This document shows positions 15,300 to 25,189 of a stretch of DNA of 64,000 bases, in pieces. The DNA is from Isoetes taiwanensis (Eukaryota; Streptophyta; Lycopodiopsida; Isoetales; Isoetaceae), in NCBI GenBank assembly GCA_021234155.1, contig JAJEKV010000018.1, positions 18,558,583 through 18,622,582 of the forward strand. Direction: 5' to 3'. Position 1 is the first letter of the stretch. Every line of letters starts with the position of its first letter. The notes below the pieces were generated by a model. That model was not told the DNA's origin and ran no database searches. It worked only from the letters and a program-made list of their open reading frames with translations. A program made the position numbers and the translations under genes.

Positions 15300-15711
15300 C
15301 TATCAAGTTGCTTGGAATGCCAGTTGATATTCATGTCAGTAATAGAACCACGTGGGAAGAGATGTTTAAAGGTTTGGAGGAACACTTATTTTGGTGGTCT
15401 ACCGCAAAATTATCTTTGCTAGTTGCATTATAGTGGCCAAGTCAGTCCTTAGCAGTACCCGTGTAATATGACTTCATTATTGCTAGCCCCGCAGGTCAAA
15501 GTGCATAAATTCATTGCAATACTCTGAAACTCCATATGGGCTGGCACTGAGGAGGGGTTGTGGTTAAGGTGGATTTGTCAAAATGCATTCTTCCAAAATG
15601 GGCAGGTGCCCTTGGCTTGATAGACTTCTCGCTGCAGAGCAAAGTTTTCATCTCCAAATTCATTTGGAGGATCTTGAATGATGAACATGACTCTTTTGGT
15701 TTATATATACC
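15300..15711 (+). pseudogene. LINE ORF2 remnant (end of the reverse-transcriptase region)
   Basis: Reading the plus strand with a few stops and frame changes gives LLGMPVDIHVSNRTTWEEMF near 15,310-15,370, then WWSTAKLSLLVAL, and near 15,590-15,700 KWAGALGLIDFSLQSK followed by FISKFIWRIL. These correspond to the conserved stretch after the RT palm of plant L1-type ORF2 (xLG.P...W..., LS.....L, K..GGLGl.d...Qs.a...K.iWR). The catalytic YxDD motif is not seen. Target-site duplications were not found. It is an old fragment unrelated in position to the LINE at 3 kb. Confidence 0.72.
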
Positions 15712-15892
15712 TTGTTAACGTCACGACCATATGGGGCCAAATTCATTTGGAGGATCTTGAATGATGAACATGACTCTTTTGGTTTATACCTTGTTAACGT
15801 CATGACCATATGGGGCCAAATTCATTTGGAGGATCTTAATGATGAAGATTACTCTTTTGGTTTACACCTTGTCAATGTCATGACCATATGGG
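15654..15892. repeat. Three tandem copies of a 79-83 bp LINE-derived segment
   Basis: ccaaattcatttggaggatc starts at 15,654, 15,737 and 15,816. Each copy continues through 'gactcttttggttta' to 'gaccatatggg'. The unit is the FIWRIL end of the LINE remnant, so the triplication happened after that element inserted. Confidence 0.88.
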
Positions 15893-16455
15893 TATTATAC
15901 TCATATATATAAAAATATGGTCATCATACGAATGCAAAGGGTAGTTGCACAAAGTTAGGCTCAAACTCCAACCTTCTAGTTGCGAGTCGCGCACTTTTAC
16001 CAAGTAAACTACCAATGCTTGTTGAAGACAGTATCTTGCATTTTTCTTGTATCCGAACCAGTTTCTAAGAGGTTTTAGAACATTCCAAGACGTAAATGCA
16101 TATATCCCATATGCATTCGTATGGAAAAGAGGCCCCTTTTCCAGTATTTAAAGGACCTTTGACACTAACATGAATATTTTGGTTCAACACCAGTGTTTTT
16201 CTCGTATTCTTGCTTGCCTTCGAACCATTGTATTTTTTATTCTTATATTAAATTCTTTGTCGATCTTGATGTATTTATTTCATATTTCTCACATATTTTC
16301 CATTTTATTTTTCTTGTTGTTGAGTAGGTTTTGACACTCAAACAATCTCTTCGTCATTGTATTCCTCTAGGCAAGAAGGCCTTAAACAAGTTTTGCCTTG
16401 GGTATTGTATCCTTTGCAACCTTTTTTGAATGCTTCTCCATTTCTATGTAAATTA
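15893..16455. other. Intergenic, nothing recognised
   Basis: AT-rich with T-rich stretches near 16,230-16,330; no open frame or motif supported. Confidence 0.5.
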
Positions 16456-16615
16456 TTCTGGGAAAGGACTCGCGAGAGACACAAATAGGCTTGTCATTCA
16501 TCGGCAGGTAGATATACAATGTTTGAAGAGAGAGGGGTAGCCGACCATAGGAACAATATCGGACTACCCCATAAGAAAATATGCTAAGGCAAGATAGGAG
16601 GGCAATGGCGACAAC

Positions 16616-16671
16616 TTCTCATCCGGGATAAAACCCCCCTTTCGGGTTTTCGAGGAAAACCCTAATGAGAA
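16616..16671. repeat. Terminal-region hairpin of the YR element
   Basis: On the minus strand TTCTCAT (16,671-16,665) and ATGAGAA (16,622-16,616) flank a conserved core with AGGGTTTTCCTCGAAAACCC and a G-run. The two related copies at 30.65 and 53.57 kb keep the core but have a different stem (GCTTATCAC with GTGATAAGC), so the pairing is kept while the sequence changed. Confidence 0.6.
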
Positions 16672-16983
16672 ATAATTCGCCACCAACCTCGAATGTGTTG
16701 CTGGAGAAAGAGAGAAAGCGGGACGAAGCGAAGGCGAACATAGAACCGACCCGGACAATGGCGAAAAACCCGAAGGTAACGAAGAAGAGGACGAACGTAA
16801 ACGCAACAGTCCCCAAAGAATGGCGGAATACAAGAAAACCCGCAATATCAAAGAACTCCCAAAAACACCCGTGAACGGTTAGAAAAACAAAAAGGCATAG
16901 CCATAAAAGGAATTTGGATCAACAAAGGACCCGAAGAGGCGAGAAATAAAAATAGGGAGAAAAAGAACATAACAGGAAAGATA

Positions 16984-17155
16984 GCATCACCCGGAGGGTG
17001 GAAAAGCATCACCAGTGAAGGGTGGAAAATCATTATATCAAAATATGCCTCACCCTCAAGGTGGAAATAAATAGCATCACCCGCGGTGGAGAATAACGCA
17101 AAGAGGATGCCAAGGAAATAGCAACATGGGAAAAGCCACACCCACGGTGGAGAAA
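16984..17155 (-). repeat. Array of five TTCCACC..GGGTGATGC mini-hairpins
   Basis: Read on the minus strand, five units of the form TTCCACC, 2-6 variable bases, GGGTGATGC occur in 172 bp. Each can fold as CACC paired with GGTG. They lie downstream of the recombinase gene, in the part of the element also found as fragments at 30.46 and 53.38 kb, where two units remain. Confidence 0.7.
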
Positions 17156-17225
17156 CACAAAAGTGCATGAACAAATAAAAATATATAAATGAAAAGATGC
17201 ATCATACTTCACGCAAAGAGGGAGG

Positions 17226-17350
17226 GGAAGGGGGAAGCTATGAGAACGAAGAATGTCTTTGAGAAAACGCCGATAACCAAACGGAAAACGACAATGACCT
17301 AATATAGGCACTCGTCCTTTCAGGAATGGTGATCCATGGCTCGGACGATG
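17226..17350 (-). repeat. Internal repeat A2 of the YR element
   Basis: A 125-bp segment that aligns with gaps to 23,767-23,905. It holds a hairpin, cgtcctttcaggaat at 17,310 against attcaggaaaggac at 17,350-17,363, which overlaps the start of repeat B1. Confidence 0.6.
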
Positions 17351-17422
17351 GGATTCAGGAAAGGACTTCGCGAGACACAAAACCTACCGACTACCAAAGG
17401 ACTTCCTCCACTATAAGCCACC

Positions 17423-18349
17423 TCAAGTGTTGAGTCGGGTCGCTGGAAGCACATAGCGAGAGTGAAAAGAAGAAGAGCGCCGGACCGGGAGTACAGCATT
17501 AAAACATCATAATGGAACTCCCCGAAGGGTACCGCTGAAGCTCCTCCCATGACGGCCGGCCGATTGAGTACCATATTGGGATGGATTTGCCATAGCTAGA
17601 AGAAGACACCCCGCCACCACCTTCCGGAAAAAATCCGGATAGGATAAAGGACGCAAAGAACAAGGCGTAGGAACTTAAAAAAGAGGCTTCTGAGGGAGGA
17701 TCGAGGAGAGGATAAGAACCGGTAGAAATCAAAGTCAAGGATAGTGACAAGGTAAAAACGGGCAAGCAAGCTTAAAGAAATGGTATGACCACGGGCAAGT
17801 TGGTTGCGCTTTGGAGGTGAATAAGAACATCAACATGCGATAAGGAAAAGAAAGATCACGCCAATTGAGAGCAAGGGCCCAGGAGATGTGCAAAAAGCGG
17901 CAAAGGAGTACCACGAAAACGCCAAAGACGGGCCGTAGAGGAAAAGGAGCGCGGATGCGCCGGGCGAAGAACAATCGAATTTAACATCTTCGAGGCAAGA
18001 GAGGAAGAAAGGTACGAGGGGGGCGAGCCCGACGAAAGGTAGACTGACGAGCCAAAGAGGGTAAAGGTAAAATGGCGGGAGAGGGAAGGTTGAAGATTTG
18101 ATGAAAAAAAGAGATGGCCGCCGAGGCCGAAGAAATGGAGGAGGGGGACATCTGAGGATGATAAAGCGAGGCGAAAAAGGCCGCAACAACAAAAGGAGAA
18201 GCTGGAAGAGAAGGAACAGCATGGGAACGGCACCAAATAACAAAACGGCGGAACATAGCGAAGTAAGCCGAAAGAGTAGACGGGGCGCGGGAGGAAAAAA
18301 CTAAAGGTAGAGTCGAAAAAAACAAGGGAACCTCCTGGGGGGTGAGCAA
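17423..18349 (-). pseudogene. Tyrosine recombinase (phage-integrase family), frameshifted
   Basis: Following the minus strand through at least three frame changes gives a whole recombinase of about 310 residues. The N-terminal SAM-like core-binding domain (18,349-17,981) reads APSTLSAYFAMFRRFVIWC, then SPSSISSASAAISFFHQ. The catalytic domain follows: LLCRF..SWALALNWRDLSF near 17,900 (arginine I region), FTSKAQP near 17,812 (the beta-hairpin lysine), YGTQSAGRHGGASA near 17,555-17,580 (the H-x-x-R box, with Gln in place of the usual His), and RSSSFHSRYV near 17,455 with the candidate nucleophilic Tyr. A TGA at 17,425-17,423 closes it. Domain order and length fit the family; motif assignment is mine and unaligned. 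Most likely it mobilised the surrounding element. Confidence 0.7.
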
Positions 18350-18399
18350 GCGAGGGAACCTCCCGGGGTGACCGTCAAATGGACGCGGCTACTGGATGA

Positions 18400-19012
18400 A
18401 GTCCGTGAATGTGGCTATTATTCCTTCCGAACCTGTGGCCAATATCTAGACGGTGATAAATCAACAAAGGAACCCTGCATCATGGATCCCCAAAAAGAAT
18501 AAACAATAACGATAAATAATAAGGAAGAATAACAAATAACTGAGATAATAAGGCAAAGAGGAAAAAACTTACCCATGGGAATGTAAAAATGCATAGATAT
18601 AAAGAAGACAAAGTGCAACCCAACATATGTTGTCAAAAACAAAGTGCTGTCGTGCTGTGGCGGAACAAAAAAAAACACATCATAGACAATAACAAAAAAG
18701 GAAAATGAGACCACAGGAATGACAGGTATGCCAAAAACACAAGGAAACCCAATTTGGAAAGTGCGGAAAAACAACCGAAGTTAATGCGGTAGTGAATAAA
18801 AGGAAGCCCACGTGCATGCAAGCCCCCAAGTGATCAACAAGAATGATGAATAATGAGGAAAAATGATAAATAACCGCGGGAATAAGAGAAAGAGGAAAAC
18901 GTACCCATGGTAATGTGCAAAAATGGATGGACGTAAAAAAGACAAAGTGTAACCCAACATATGATGCCAATAAATCACAAAACGAGATAGGTAGCAGAAT
19001 CATAAACATGAT
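18400..19012. repeat. Diverged internal duplication in the YR element
   Basis: The stretch 18,480-18,650 (ending acccatgggaatgtaaaaatg ... gacaaagtgcaacccaacat) is repeated in diverged form at 18,840-18,970 (acccatggtaatgtgcaaaa ... gacaaagtgtaacccaacat). No coding sequence; minus-strand frames here are hydrophobic because of the pyrimidine bias. Confidence 0.6.
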
Positions 19013-19015
19013 ATA

Positions 19016-19170
19016 TGCAATAAAAGGCAATAAAACCATGATGAGGTAGCATATAAAATACGAAACAATGGCAACATCCAAATAGAAAACCCATGCAATA
19101 AAAGGAAATAAAACCATGATGAGGTAGCATATAAAATACGAAACAATGGCAACATCCAAATAGAAAACCC
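19016..19170. repeat. Two near-identical 78-bp tandem copies
   Basis: tgcaataaaagg starts at 19,016 and 19,094; the copies differ at only one or two positions and end in aatagaaaaccc. Confidence 0.9.
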
Positions 19171-20791
19171 CGCAGAGAAAAAAGAAATAGAATCACCCTA
19201 TTTAGGATCCAGAAAACATAAAAGAGACATAACACAGTAATCCGGCGAATAGCGCAGCAATCATAGAATAGTGCGAAGCATCGAAATCCCATAGAAACCA
19301 CAATTGCAAAGGAGAAAAGAATCCGAACCCACCATGGGAAAACAATTATAAGATCGTGCTATATATTAAGAAACCACATAGGCAACTCAAACGAAAAATG
19401 TAAAAAGAAACATAGGAAAAGAGATTCATAACCAAATGAAGCACCGTATGACAAATCCCCTAATTGCCTTGTACATGAGAACAACAATAAACCCATCACC
19501 CATGCTCAAGAACAAAGAATGCAACTTCGTGAAGTAACAAAATAATTGCGCTAATAAAGTGAACAAAGGAACCAACAAACACTAAAGCTCCCGGATGATC
19601 ATGCCAGAAAAGAAGAAAAAATCTTAAACACAACCCCAAATATTCGAATCCAAGTATAGGCCCAAACCAAATACATATAAGAAATTTAACCACAAAGGAC
19701 AAGAGGTGGAAAACATGTATGCATGTAAAAAGACTGTAATGGGACGAGAAAAGGACTCAAAACGACGACACAAATCCACTTCCCCATCTAGATGCAAAAA
19801 GTGACAATCCAATACTTATATATATGGAAAATTGGTGTAGAAATCCACTTGACATAGAGCCAATGGCCAAACCTATAGAAAATATATATATAAGAAGCAT
19901 GCAATGCAACATGAAAACATAAATATATATCATGGAAGAGAAGCAATATTAGACCCAGAATATCGAAAACAAAGAACTAGGCATGCAACGAACTAAGAAA
20001 ATATTTGATGAACAAAGATAAAAAGCGAAGACAATGAATCCATAACCGACCATATACATATGATATCGATATAGCATGATAAAAATCACTCTCAGAAAAA
20101 CCAATGTAAGACAGGAAAAGAATCACTCATAATCATGTCACACGTGTATAAGCACGTGTATAAGCCAAGGTTAAGGTCAAGGTCAAGATCGACTGCATAT
20201 AGGGAGATAGCCAGTAATTATCATGTCCAACAAAAAACAATAGCTCAAAATTGCAACTTACAACCCATGTCACTAGCAGCAAAATCCGTAACTACAAAAG
20301 AACATGAAAGACAAATTGCCCAAATGACATAATGAACGCAAAATGTAGTGTAACTTCCACCAAATGCATCATAATAACTTGAAGGCTAAGCATTCCTATA
20401 GCAAAAGAGAGCTAAAAAATACATGTCCCAAATGAAATAAACCCATGCAAATGCGCCCATAAGTTCAAAAAAAAACCAATGCTCGCCCGTCATCCTAAAG
20501 AACTTCCAAACCAACGGGATCCAACGAGCAAATGAAGTGGAGGAATATACAACTAGAAGCAAGGCGTGATTAAAAAGAAAGGCAGAGTCAAGGTTGTCGA
20601 AAGGGAGGTTGTGGCCAAGGGGTCTTTTGAAGACGGGTTGGAGAGGGCGAATGTCGAGATGGAAGGCAAGGAGTGTAGCAGATAACCAAGTGAGGAAATG
20701 GGCAAATGAAAAAACACAATGACACAAAGCGGGACATGGTTTGCGATAATAAAATAAAGGAGGTATATGCGAAATGAAAATGAAAATACAT

Positions 20792-21034
20792 TGACATATT
20801 GTCAATAGAGAAATCCATCAACAAAGCCAAATACAAATAAAATACTGCAAGAAGAAAAGAAGCTAGAAAGGCGAAGTGATGTCAACTGAGTTGAGCAAAC
20901 CAGACAATTGCAATGACATATTGCTAGTAGAGAAATCCGGCAACACACAAAGCCAAATGCAAAAAGAAAACGGCAACGTATGGATAAGAAAATTAGCCCG
21001 AAAACAGAAATGATGTCAACTGAGTTGAGCAAAT
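20792..21034. repeat. Two diverged 122-bp tandem copies
   Basis: tgacatattg starts at 20,792 and 20,914, both followed by agagaaatcc, and the copies end with gatgtcaactgagttgagca. Confidence 0.8.
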
Positions 21035-23195
21035 GGAGCGCTCTAGAAAAATAGGCATAAAAGCGGCACGTATGCAAGAGGAACCTAGTACACAAGCTGA
21101 AAAGATATCATAAAACCCTTTCATTGTAAAGGAAATCAATGCCCACAAAGCTATGCCCAAAAATAGGTCCGACTACAACATAGAAATTGAAAAATAATGA
21201 TGAGGTGCATTAGAGAAACAAGGAAGGCGTCAATACGATTGGGCAATGCAATGAAGCCAAAAAGAAAACCATACCCAAGACACGAACATCTTAGTAAATG
21301 CGTAATAAAGAGAATACGTAATAAAGAGATCGAATTGACTAAAGAGAAATGAGGAAATTCGTCAAATTGATACCAGATAACCCTAACTAGAGTAGTGTTC
21401 CAGCCATGTGGTAATAGCATAACTCGCCTTCTAAGGTATCTATGCCAGCTTACAACAACATTTTGTAACCCTTCAAAAACGATGAACGTCAAAATTAACA
21501 TCTGGCTCCTGCCAATTCCAATAGAATAAAAAACAGGAAATGTAAAGAAAAGAGGCATGTATCTAGACAAATAAGCGTAACCCCATATGATGCCAAAATT
21601 GTGTTCATTAATTTCATCCCAAGAGATGGTTAACAAGGGAAAATAAAGAGAATTGGAGGAGGAAAGTGCGAGGAAATATGGATGAGAAAATCAAACAGCA
21701 CACATGAAGAGCCAACATTCAAAGCCAGAACTTTTGGAAAACTACATACCCCATCCCGATGGGCTTGTCGAAATGTAAAACCATTGAGATGAAAACTAAC
21801 CAGCAAATAAATATAGCCAAACAAATGGCGAATCTCATTGAAAAACATAAAAGCCATGACTTACGAAGCAAAACCACATATGAATAAAAAACCTAGCACC
21901 TCATAGAAAAAACAAAATGTATAGAAGTGCAATGGCAGACATGGAGAAGGCATCATGCAAAAAATGCACCAAACAAATGTTAAAACATTAGAGAACATTT
22001 AAACCCAAATGAATAACCAACTAAAACATAAGAAGATCCGGCTGAGAAGACAGCTCCTGTGGAGTAAAAGATGGAGATCGAGCATTTGAAAGAGCCAATT
22101 GCAACAAAGATGGCAAATTTAAAGCGACTCGTAGAAAAGAAGGAGATAGACCGAATCACCGGCCCTATGGCGGCTATGAGATCTGTGGATCTAGTGATTG
22201 AGCAAGGTTGAAATAAAAACCAGCGGGGAGGCAGATCTACGAGGAGTCTTGCGGCGGCCATCATCTGAATAAATCGAGTGCAAGAGCCGATTGATTGAAC
22301 TACACCGGCGTGCAAAAAGTTAATGCGATCTATAAATGGGGACCAATCGAAACAAGGCAATGGTGAAACTTATTTGTCCTATGGCAGAGGGAAGGAGAGA
22401 ACAAGGAAACTTATAGATGGGTAAGAGGGCTTATGAGTTCTTGGTGAAGTATGAAAAATCAGAGGAGATGGATGAGAATCACAAACATATTCTAAGAACG
22501 GTTTCCGGAAAGCTCGAATTGGGCAAACATCAAAAAGCAGCCAAATCGCTATCCCTGAGGAGCTGGGGCTGTCGGATGGTCTCGATACTGCCCAGAATCC
22601 TACAGGTTCAGCAGTGAGTTGGAACTCAAGAGAAATTTGCCGCTCAATCACAAGAGAATTGGAGGAGGACTAGAATATCCCGCATGCAAATGAAAAGTCC
22701 GAAGCCAAAGGGAGCAAGGATCAATCACGAATGAATAGATCTAAAACTTAATGTGCATGGACTAGATCGGCTAACTAATGTAAACCTGATCGCCTTTAAG
22801 ATGCAGCCATGCAGCAGAAATTTCCTAGCGGATAGAGCAAGAATGATCCACAAACTTACAGATCCACCAATCCTCATGTGTTACTCTATACCTGTGAGAG
22901 AACTGGGAGAAACTTAAACAATCGATATAATCATTCGATCAGAACGAAAATGGCAAAAAATAGACCAATGATTCAACTGGAAACCAAACCTGTTCCATAG
23001 CAAATGTGGACCTGGATCTCTACCACAAAAGCCCAGCATGCTCACGAAGCCATACATCAAGAGAAATGAGGTGACAGACTGTCGAGGTTTGCCGTTGTGA
23101 GGTCCAGAAATCGTTGAGCTGTGGTGCAACAGAGCTCAAATGCGATGGCGGAGGCTGGGAGTGAAAAATTAAGAGCTCCCTGGGCTGACACGAAA

Positions 23196-23296
23196 ATCGA
23201 TGAGGCAGACGTTGCATGCAGCTCCAACCCCTCTCCATTCGAGCGCACAGATCGATGAGGCAGATGTTGCATGCAGTTCCAACCCTGCTCCGTTCT
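23196..23296. repeat. Two 55-bp tandem copies
   Basis: atcgatgaggcagacgttgc at 23,196 and atcgatgaggcagatgttgc at 23,251, each followed by atgcag and tccaaccc. Confidence 0.85.
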
Positions 23297-23766
23297 TGTG
23301 CACGCCCAGCCAGTCTGGCCGAACTCCAACCAAACAGATCAGAATGGAAAAATGAAGCTCAGATCTGGATTCAGGGAAAAAGGGTTGAAAGAGGAAGCTG
23401 AAAACAGAAAAAGATGCAACATGGAAAGATCCGCCTGAACATAGTCGCAGGCGATGGAGTACCGCCACCAAGATGCCAAATCCGAGTCTGCCTCCTCAAA
23501 AATGCAGCTCTAACCACTGCAACCAAACTCGAATCATGACGAAGACGTCCCGTAGAAGCGAGGATTCGTGAATGCCACTCTGCAAGAAGTTCTAGAGAAC
23601 AAAAAAACATTAAAAGGACAAGAGAGACACAGAGGGACTGAATGGAAATGGGTGGAGCAATCCCGGTGGAACCAGCCAACAAAGGCGATGTGAAACCAGC
23701 TAGGAAAGATGGTGGTAAAGATGAAGAAAATGCCAAAAGATGAAGAGGAGCAAGATGATGAGGAGG

Positions 23767-23905
23767 GAAGCTACGAGAACGAAGAATCTTTGCTTTGTGA
23801 GAAGACGTAGATAATAAGGCTTAAAAGGCGACAATGACCTAATATATTTCGTCCTTTCCCAGAATGGCGATCCGATGGCTCGGATCGATGGGATTGGAAG
23901 CATGG
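23767..23905 (-). repeat. Terminal repeat A1 of the YR element
   Basis: The diverged partner of 17,226-17,350 in the same orientation. On the minus strand it would be the 5' end of the element. Shared landmarks are agaacgaagaat, cgacaatgacctaatata, cgtcctttc and gatggctcgga. Confidence 0.6.
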
Positions 23906-24345
23906 GATGTAGTCAGACATCTGTTTTGGACACGCCCCTCCACTTGCGTTGTACTGCAAATTCCTTGGTGGTGGGCACCATTACCACCAAACCTCTCAAC
24001 ACCTCCACTTGCTGCATCTGTCCATTCCCTCACACAGAGATGATGGGTCCATGCAGGTGTTGTTTCTATTCAAGAATGGTATAGAGATGGTTGCCTACTA
24101 TCGTGGTATTGAGTTTCAGAAAAAAATTTCACTCTCCCATAAGGATGTATCCGTCTAGGAGAAAGTAGCAGAAAATATGCCACTTATAGTGGAGGGTGGT
24201 GCCATAGCAAGGCTGGCTTGGGGCTGCCACAAGATTATTCACAAAGGCAAGGACCTTTTCAGCTCCATATATTAAATCCTCTTAGCTCCTCGCCCCTCCC
24301 ACTGCCAAATGGGTGGCATTTGCAGATTCCAAAATCTAATTGACA
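23906..24345. other. Flank of LINE remnant, nothing firm
   Basis: Probably an older part of the LINE remnant that follows, but I could not align any RT motif to it. Confidence 0.35.
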
Positions 24346-24510
24346 TGGCGTTGGCTTTGGGATAAGTTGCTTCATCCCAAAGTGTATGTATTTTGATGAC
24401 AGGTTATCCTTAGGTGCCTGGATGTTAATGCCTTGAGGTATCGCTATGATCCTGGCACGTCTGCAGTATGCCCGCTCTGCGTTTCAGACATTGAGACTAT
24501 TGCATTGTCT
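24346..24510 (+). pseudogene. LINE zf-RVT fragment
   Basis: The plus strand reads WRWLWDKLLHPKVYVF, stop codons, then QVILRCLDVNALRYRYDPG, CPLCVSDIETIALS. It matches the zf-RVT region of the LINE at 3.2-3.8 kb almost motif for motif (W.W.WDKLLHPKV, CPLC...ETI). Two adjacent in-frame stops show decay. Confidence 0.75.
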
Positions 24511-25189
24511 TTTTCATTCAACGTGAGCATCTAAGGTGCATATCCAAAAGGAAGAATGCCAGTTCGTGGTCATATATTCGCGCCGTGGAGGAGCTCTGAG
24601 AGAGGCATAAGGACTGGGATGAGGCAATCTATGCATACGCTTATTCTGTGATTCAACACGTAATTCTTCTACCAGAGCGGGATCCAACTGTTTGCAGAGT
24701 GTCTCCCAGTCTTGAGGCGGGATCAAGGTCTCAAGAGGAAACGGTTCCCAGTCAAGTGGAATGACCTTATTCTCTAGATATGTGTGGAGAGTGTTTAGAG
24801 TACCAACATACTGGAAAAACAACTGCGCATAGCGAATGCCATAATCGCGCCGTAAATGGGCTTAGGCACTATGAAGAGTCTCTTGTGTGCAGAGTGTGAT
24901 GTGTGAGTGAAGCTTCGGCATATATTCTTTTTGCAGCATGGAGGTGGCAGTTGGATCAAGAGATATTTACTATCTTTCTGGAGTAGTAAGACAACAAACT
25001 AATTGCCCTTCAAGGCTTCAGGGTGGCCTTCAGAACATTTTGCTTAAGAGTGAGCAAGATAAAAATCATGGAGGACATATGCCATAGGTTGGACAGTTCG
25101 AAAAATAAAGAATTGAAGATCTTCGCAATGGAGTAGCTGGAAGTTAGCCAAGGCACACAAAACTCCTCTTTCTTCTATGGTAAGGCTGG

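Follow-up and report, generated by a model that had tools for sequence, protein, structure and literature searches.

A 64,000-nucleotide stretch of the Isoetes taiwanensis genome (contig JAJEKV010000018.1, positions 18,558,583 to 18,622,582; hereafter the window) carries on its minus strand an element built around a tyrosine recombinase (YR) gene. Its parts run in the order A1, long leader, degraded YR, B1, A2, spacer and B2. An initial annotation, made from the letters alone, had proposed the repeat order A1-YR-B1-A2-B2, a split-direct-repeat layout in a plant that it likened to Ngaro/DIRS-like YR retroelements. The order is real: A1 and A2 are 78% identical over 134 columns (E 3e-20), and B1, A2 and B2 lie where they had been placed, while comparison with other copies refined the ends to 23895 (left) and 16455 (right). 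The YR is also genuine. It is 59% identical to residues 15-315 of the open YR of a sister copy, L011 (tblastn, E 4e-78), and a 135-residue open stretch at 17981-18388, from the N-terminal part of the gene, matches the integrase SAM-like domain (E 1.4e-4, at 22.6 bits below the Pfam cut-off of 27). The strand skew noted in the annotation was confirmed, with an AT skew of +0.27 to +0.51 per kb across 17-24 kb of the window. The sense strand is T-rich (36-41%) and A-poor (13-17%) over 16455-23895 and in L007, L008, L011, L031 and L028, and this strong T/A strand bias is common to autonomous and non-autonomous copies.

No reverse transcriptase (RT) was seen in the window copy itself. We searched the genome (1,658,258,908 bases in 1,110 contigs; L-numbers denote loci taken from it) for relatives, and obtained at least 42 matches to a YR DNA query (best 40 of 627 candidates scored), at least 123 to the L011 YR protein (best 122 of 3,158 scored) and at least 70 to a pol query (best 63 of 9,533 scored). 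In the protein search, the matched stretch was stop-free in 23 of the 40 top rows. The copies that the annotation had proposed looking for, alike in order and ends and carrying an RT, are indeed present. In five loci (L007, L008, L010, L011 and L031), genes for gag, RT-RNase H and YR occur together, individually open or partly broken, and the sister copies have A1 in front, followed by Gag, RT, RNase H, a putative Dam-like domain, YR and then B1-A2-B2. The pol frame is open over 705 residues in L011, 659 in L010 and 658 in L031; that of the YR is open in L005, L007, L008, L011 and L031. A second family has the same layout, with a YR about 50% identical.

Pfam RVT_1 was found in all eight pol members and RNase H families in six to seven of the eight (best E 0.00039), and an RT profile matched Ty3 Gag-Pol among PDB sequences (5e-21). 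All nine YR members match Phage_integrase, and the YR profile matched Cre-type recombinases in the PDB over most of its length (best 2.2e-4, to Tre). In the R-K-HxxR-H/W-Y motif of the recombinase, K, HxxR, H/W and Y are invariant in the nine members and the first R is present in eight. The gag open reading frames (ORFs) of L007, L008 and L010 show a CX2CX4HX4C zinc knuckle when read by eye; those of L008 and L010 gave no Pfam zinc-knuckle match.

Copies at independent loci also share their ends. The left end, small letter changes aside, is the same in the window and in 12 of the 17 fetched loci (L005-L021), with flanks that are unrelated except at L006. Outside this set of left ends are L005, L009, L012, L013 and L014: L013 lacks the first part of A1, and the remaining four are nested, rearranged or have no clear A1. 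The region is full of repeats, and chance might have placed unrelated A and B insertions around a stray YR, but identical order and terminal bases at independent loci refute this, and its probability is practically nil. Very little weight can be given to an origin in a contaminating alga or fungus, since the copies are spread over dozens of contigs, many 10-53 Mb in length, and three sit inside repeats that have other copies in the genome.

The annotation had further suggested a non-autonomous or Crypton-like new class. The first half of this stands, gag-pol being absent from the window; the second does not. A Crypton-like DNA transposon, or a new YR-only class, would move without reverse transcription, in agreement with the window copy, where no RT was seen, and with the existence of a separate YR protein family in the genome (L029 and L030). 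However, Cryptons are element families without RT, and sister copies with the same ends as the window carry Gag, RT and RNase H, which already refutes the idea. The A1-B1-A2-B2 repeats are a retroelement feature, and L029 and L030 have no tblastn match to the YR of the window element's family. We therefore regard Crypton-like movement as highly improbable. The 9.9-kb stretches at L029 (C1038) and L030 (C1019) contain a second, unrelated set of YR proteins in stop-to-stop frames of 417-420 residues (Phage_integrase E about 1e-7), without a match to the Gag, RT or YR of the window element's family; presumably these resemble Crypton-derived YRs.

We read the window element as a deletion/replacement derivative of a PAT-like YR retrotransposon, with gag-pol absent, and as neither a Crypton nor a new class. 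In the excerpts consulted, PAT elements are described as YR retroelements with a putative methyltransferase and split direct repeats, to which Pat1-like elements add a Gag zinc finger (PMC4157794; also PMC3783388, PMC3266345), and split direct repeats have A1 at the 5′ end and B1, A2 and B2 at the 3′ end (PMC6681497). The Isoetes copies agree with that description in their YR, RT with RNase H, repeat arrangement and Pat1-like Gag zinc finger (PMC6681497, PMC4157794), and their sub-threshold Dam-like domain may correspond to the putative methyltransferase. They differ in their land-plant host, in an extra ORF of 111-112 residues before gag, and in a nested inverted repeat at the B/A junction that is absent from those parts of the published descriptions. 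Echinoderms have a PAT-like form in which the repeats likewise follow the YR. Kangaroo and TOC of green algae, according to the same excerpts, belong to the PAT group and share both the split direct repeats and the green lineage (PMC4157794, PMC3266345), but in Kangaroo the YR is inverted and internal repeats separate it from the methyltransferase (PMC4157794), whereas the Isoetes YR reads in the sense direction and precedes the repeats. DIRS1-like elements in the strict sense are marked by inverted terminal repeats and an internal complementary region; the Isoetes copies have split direct repeats instead, and no inverted repeat of at least 18 bases was reported in window positions 15500-25000. 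ALOG-type DIRS1 retroposons are likewise YR retroelements tied to streptophyte evolution, and complete elements are said, in part of one report, to be not known from streptophytes (PMC3537659). No ALOG-domain family appeared among the Pfam matches (E up to 1) of the nine YR members.

We conclude, with a probability of roughly 0.9, that the window copy is non-autonomous and belongs to a PAT-like family of YR retrotransposons with many copies and recent activity in this lycophyte genome. Several points weigh against this reading. Among the copies read at length, none has gag, pol and YR all open. Between RNase H and YR lies a conserved domain whose matches to Dam, in five of five members, have E values no better than 0.0028, below the Pfam cut-off, and which has no methylase match in the PDB. 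The PAT-like filing is a provisional one, made by layout and domains rather than by an RT or YR tree with DIRS, PAT, Ngaro and VIPER references. The window structure through the leader/YR junction is repeated at only one clearly independent locus, L013, plus two partial copies on C1054 that cross this junction. Finally, reverse transcription is predicted here from genomic sequence.

A Ngaro-type element is the only serious alternative to the PAT-like filing. Ngaro has A-pol-B-A-B split direct repeats as well (PMC4157794, PMC3783388, in part), and the sub-threshold Dam match would fit such an element. By definition, however, Ngaro is without a methyltransferase domain (same sources), and the domain between RNase H and YR, though sub-threshold, matches Dam in every member. 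The annotation's Ngaro/DIRS-like label is right as to the general sort, with the Dam-like domain pointing to PAT-like elements and making Ngaro itself unlikely.

Table 1. Features of the YR element in the window (positions counted within the window)
Feature	Position	Strand	Remarks
Whole element, PAT-like YR retrotransposon derivative	16455-23895	minus	7441 bp; ends common to independent copies with unrelated flanks
A1, left split direct repeat	23762-23895	minus	78% to window A2; 81-84% to A1/A2 of L007, L008, L010, L011
Leader-like 5′ region replacing gag, RT, RNase H and methyltransferase	18397-23761	minus	about 5.4 kb; no recognised gene
Tyrosine recombinase (YR), frames broken	17447-18352	minus	tblastn to L011 YR; SAM-like domain match
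B1, AAT at its end	17353-17383	minus	comparison with other copies
A2, AAT at its start	17232-17355	minus	B1/A2 junction is the presumed recombination site, degraded in window
A2-B2 spacer	16486-17231	minus	within 16455-18354, aligned to L007, L008, L010, L011 at 82-84%
B2, right end	16455-16485	minus	31/31 identical to B1 of L006, L007, L010, L011

Insertion is precise at a target AAT. The joined flanks of all three full copies tested (L007, L008 and L011) match unoccupied paralogous sites: for L007, all 252 bases spanning the junction, at each of two sites; for L011, 95% and 92% over 303; and for L008, 96% over query positions 121-303. Each empty site has one AAT, compared to an AAT at both ends of the inserted copy, and no target duplication beyond AAT was seen in these three comparisons. 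The trinucleotide is not fixed, because left ends with GAT (L010, L021 and L031), TAT (L020) and TTT (L019) also occur.

By analogy with the published split-direct-repeat model, the element's RNA would be reverse transcribed, the internal B1-A2 stretch would allow the ends to be joined as a circle carrying a B-A junction, which the YR would then recombine with a chromosomal AAT. The window copy has lost gag, RT, RNase H and the putative methyltransferase and keeps its ends, its junction and a broken YR; it would therefore depend on proteins supplied by sister copies.

Insertions that stop at B1 would be expected from a circle with two B-A junctions. We assembled 71 junction stretches, 66 adjoining YR matches and five from longer loci. 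In four of them (L046, L047, L081 and L102), the copy runs to the B1 AAT and then into unrelated DNA, with no A2, spacer or B2; L063 does likewise with AAC. The DNA after B1 in L046 is a repeat, whose other copies start matching exactly at the AAT (ten places, query 64-149 or 64-150). Five 2.2-kb stretches at the expected distance, one for each of these loci, contained no match to the L011 element that could mark a 5′ end. The copies stopping at B1 may be small circles, permuted insertions or 5′-truncated copies.

Purifying selection, as judged from ratios of nonsynonymous to synonymous change (dN/dS), acts on both YR and pol. The ratio is 0.10-0.14 for the YR between L005, L011 and L031 and 0.05 for pol between L011 and L031; overall it ranges from 0.10 to 0.29 for YR and from 0.05 to 0.16 for pol in pairs with computable dS. 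In comparisons between families, synonymous sites are at or near saturation, with dN/dS of 0.07-0.26 where dS could be computed. We conclude that the families are old. Some insertions are recent, since the repeats are identical within L007 and L011 (A1 and A2 over 126 and 127 bases, B1 and B2 over 39 and 36 bases, respectively).

The extra ORF between A1 and gag starts with ATG and lies at 2472-2804 in L007, 2701-3033 in L011 and, in element sense, 2898-3230 in L031. In the single pair compared, L011 and L031, the product is 70% identical, and dN/dS is 0.10 in frame but 1.44 and 2.4 when the alternative frames are read. It has no Pfam match, and the L008 copy has an internal stop. The ORF probably encodes a conserved extra protein.

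In the window, the leader takes the place of the missing genes. Two of its pieces, 18842-18981 and 18525-18647, are similar to sequence that precedes gag in autonomous copies, matching L007 3308-3438 and 3543-3650 at 73-74%. A query with window positions 20000-23700 gave at least 77 matches, the window included (best 40 of 482 candidates scored), and parts of this 5′ region also occur in L013-L021. In L015-L021, about 60-110 extra bases stand at fixed points between blocks of the 5′ region, which suggested introns or a captured spliced transcript. We rejected this and take the differences as deletions: the junctions have no consistent GT-AG, and one falls at a short repeat.

One locus bears on how far the window copy can be read literally. 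L006 (C1033) repeats the window locus, flanks included, and is a second assembly or duplicate of it. The two show no substitution in two 500-base bins and near-zero differences in several bins, whereas many substitutions and gaps are concentrated in the high-copy YR/A2 part and again around 22.2-23.5 kb. This clustering, mainly in high-copy sequence, suggests mis-polishing, and the A1/A2 divergence (22% in the window versus 1.5% in L006) fits. The frameshifts and apparent age of the window copy are therefore not reliable. The frames are broken, as the annotation reported, but the frameshifts may in part be assembly noise.

The B1/A2 junction, the presumed site of recombination, is unexpectedly a nested inverted repeat. 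In L007, L011 and L031 it consists of 15-base perfect outer arms and a 27-base spacer containing an inner 8-bp hairpin; the outer arms were reached in 0 of 1,000 shuffles and the inner hairpin in 16-23. L028, from the second family, follows this plan with other letters, and none of 1,000 shuffles reached its outer arms or its inner hairpin. The window junction is degraded, with 17 of 1,000 shuffles reaching its outer arms and 855 its inner hairpin. Folding z-scores were -6.98 for L007, -7.02 for L028, -3.48 for L031 and -0.43 for the window.

The motif GAAT-N22-38-ATTC is present in 54 of the 71 junctions, one of which (L047) stops at B1 and fits by chance only. The other 17 include at least four with a one-letter change (L052, L057, L060 and L071) and three that stop at B1 (L046, L081 and L102); the rest are changed, degraded or truncated. 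The 54 junctions comprise 23 distinct arm pairs. At seven positions outside the motif, arms of the same junction form 5.1 pairs on average compared to 4.0 for swapped arms, and none of 10,000 permutations reached the sum, although relatedness among the sequences means that they are not independent observations. For seven family types, the inner hairpin was reached by 0-116 of 20,000 shuffles.

Covariation was counted in 12 of the 54 motif junctions, chosen outside the window's family, with the structure drawn from one of them. In this set, pairing is present in 96.6% of cells, both partners change in 8 of the 28 pairs, and covariation scores 0.279 versus at most 0.094 for slid versions. Two of five covariation measures were not above 3′-shuffles: 139 of 500 shuffles were as high for both-side changes, and 500 of 500 for further pair types. 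The inverted symmetry at the crossover looks maintained, with pairing apparently kept while letters differ between subfamilies.

How a recombinase would use this symmetry can be read in two ways. The more conservative is a plain double-stranded palindrome bound by recombinase protomers, which explains the pairing equally well. Alternatively, the junction could be an attC-like site, in which the YR would act on a folded single cDNA strand, recognised by its shape (an outer stem ending in GAAT/ATTC, asymmetric unpaired bases and an inner hairpin with a 3-5-base loop), and recombine it with a double-stranded AAT target. We counted four features for this reading: pairing kept across subfamilies with changed letters, a retained motif with a GAAT-ATTC spacer of 27-35 bases, asymmetric unpaired bases, and a crossover at the edge of the unpaired stretch rather than the symmetry centre. 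Integron attC sites are a works-like comparison only. They too are YR sites able to self-fold, in which letters vary while pairing is kept, but the Isoetes element is a eukaryotic retroelement and its active folded form is putative. Sequence alone cannot separate the folded strand from the double-stranded palindrome, and we hold the attC-like reading to be possible but doubtful. In the literature searched, at the level of titles and abstracts for part of the matches, we found no description of a covarying nested repeat at a B/A junction.

The kind of element is known; its lycophyte host is unexpected. The annotation had remarked that YR retroelements are rarely described from land plants, and excerpts from the literature are divided. 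DIRS-type elements are not listed for land plants in a 2022 review, and a 2011 survey described green plants as devoid of DIRS1-like elements. DIRS figures in the scheme of major plant transposable elements of a 2024 review (PMC11630846), PlantRep uses DIRS as a category (PMC9035001), Dirs1-like elements are stated to be present in Viridiplantae (PMC4157794), and a C-fern repeat table has 361 DIRS fragments totalling 45 kb (PMC6890710); the portions of these four contain no structured land-plant element. The word DIRS occurs 0 times in the main text of the I. taiwanensis (PMC8566536) and I. sinensis (PMC10541799) genome papers. Literature matches for Isoetes and DIRS concerned other subjects, judging by titles and the starts of abstracts. 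Among the literature matches listed, none described a structured YR retrotransposon in a land plant, with most subscription journals and repeat databases outside their scope. Searches of viral and prokaryote collections confirmed no relatives outside this genome among 46 + 27 pattern stretches in viral contigs and 151 in genome contigs, which, given the collections, says little.

The presence in a lycophyte of diverse PAT-like families whose open YR and pol frames are under purifying selection, and of very recent insertions, changes the view of land plants as lacking DIRS-type elements. With empty sites and dozens of natural junction variants at hand, the integration step, so far a model, becomes directly testable, and the B1/A2 junction offers an opening onto the mechanism of recombination.

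Two tandem arrangements were seen in passing. L045 (C165:75300-83900) is an array of about 2.5-kb units made partly of sequence from the window element's family, and three tandem units of about 80 bases lie at 15654-15892 of the window, just outside the element.

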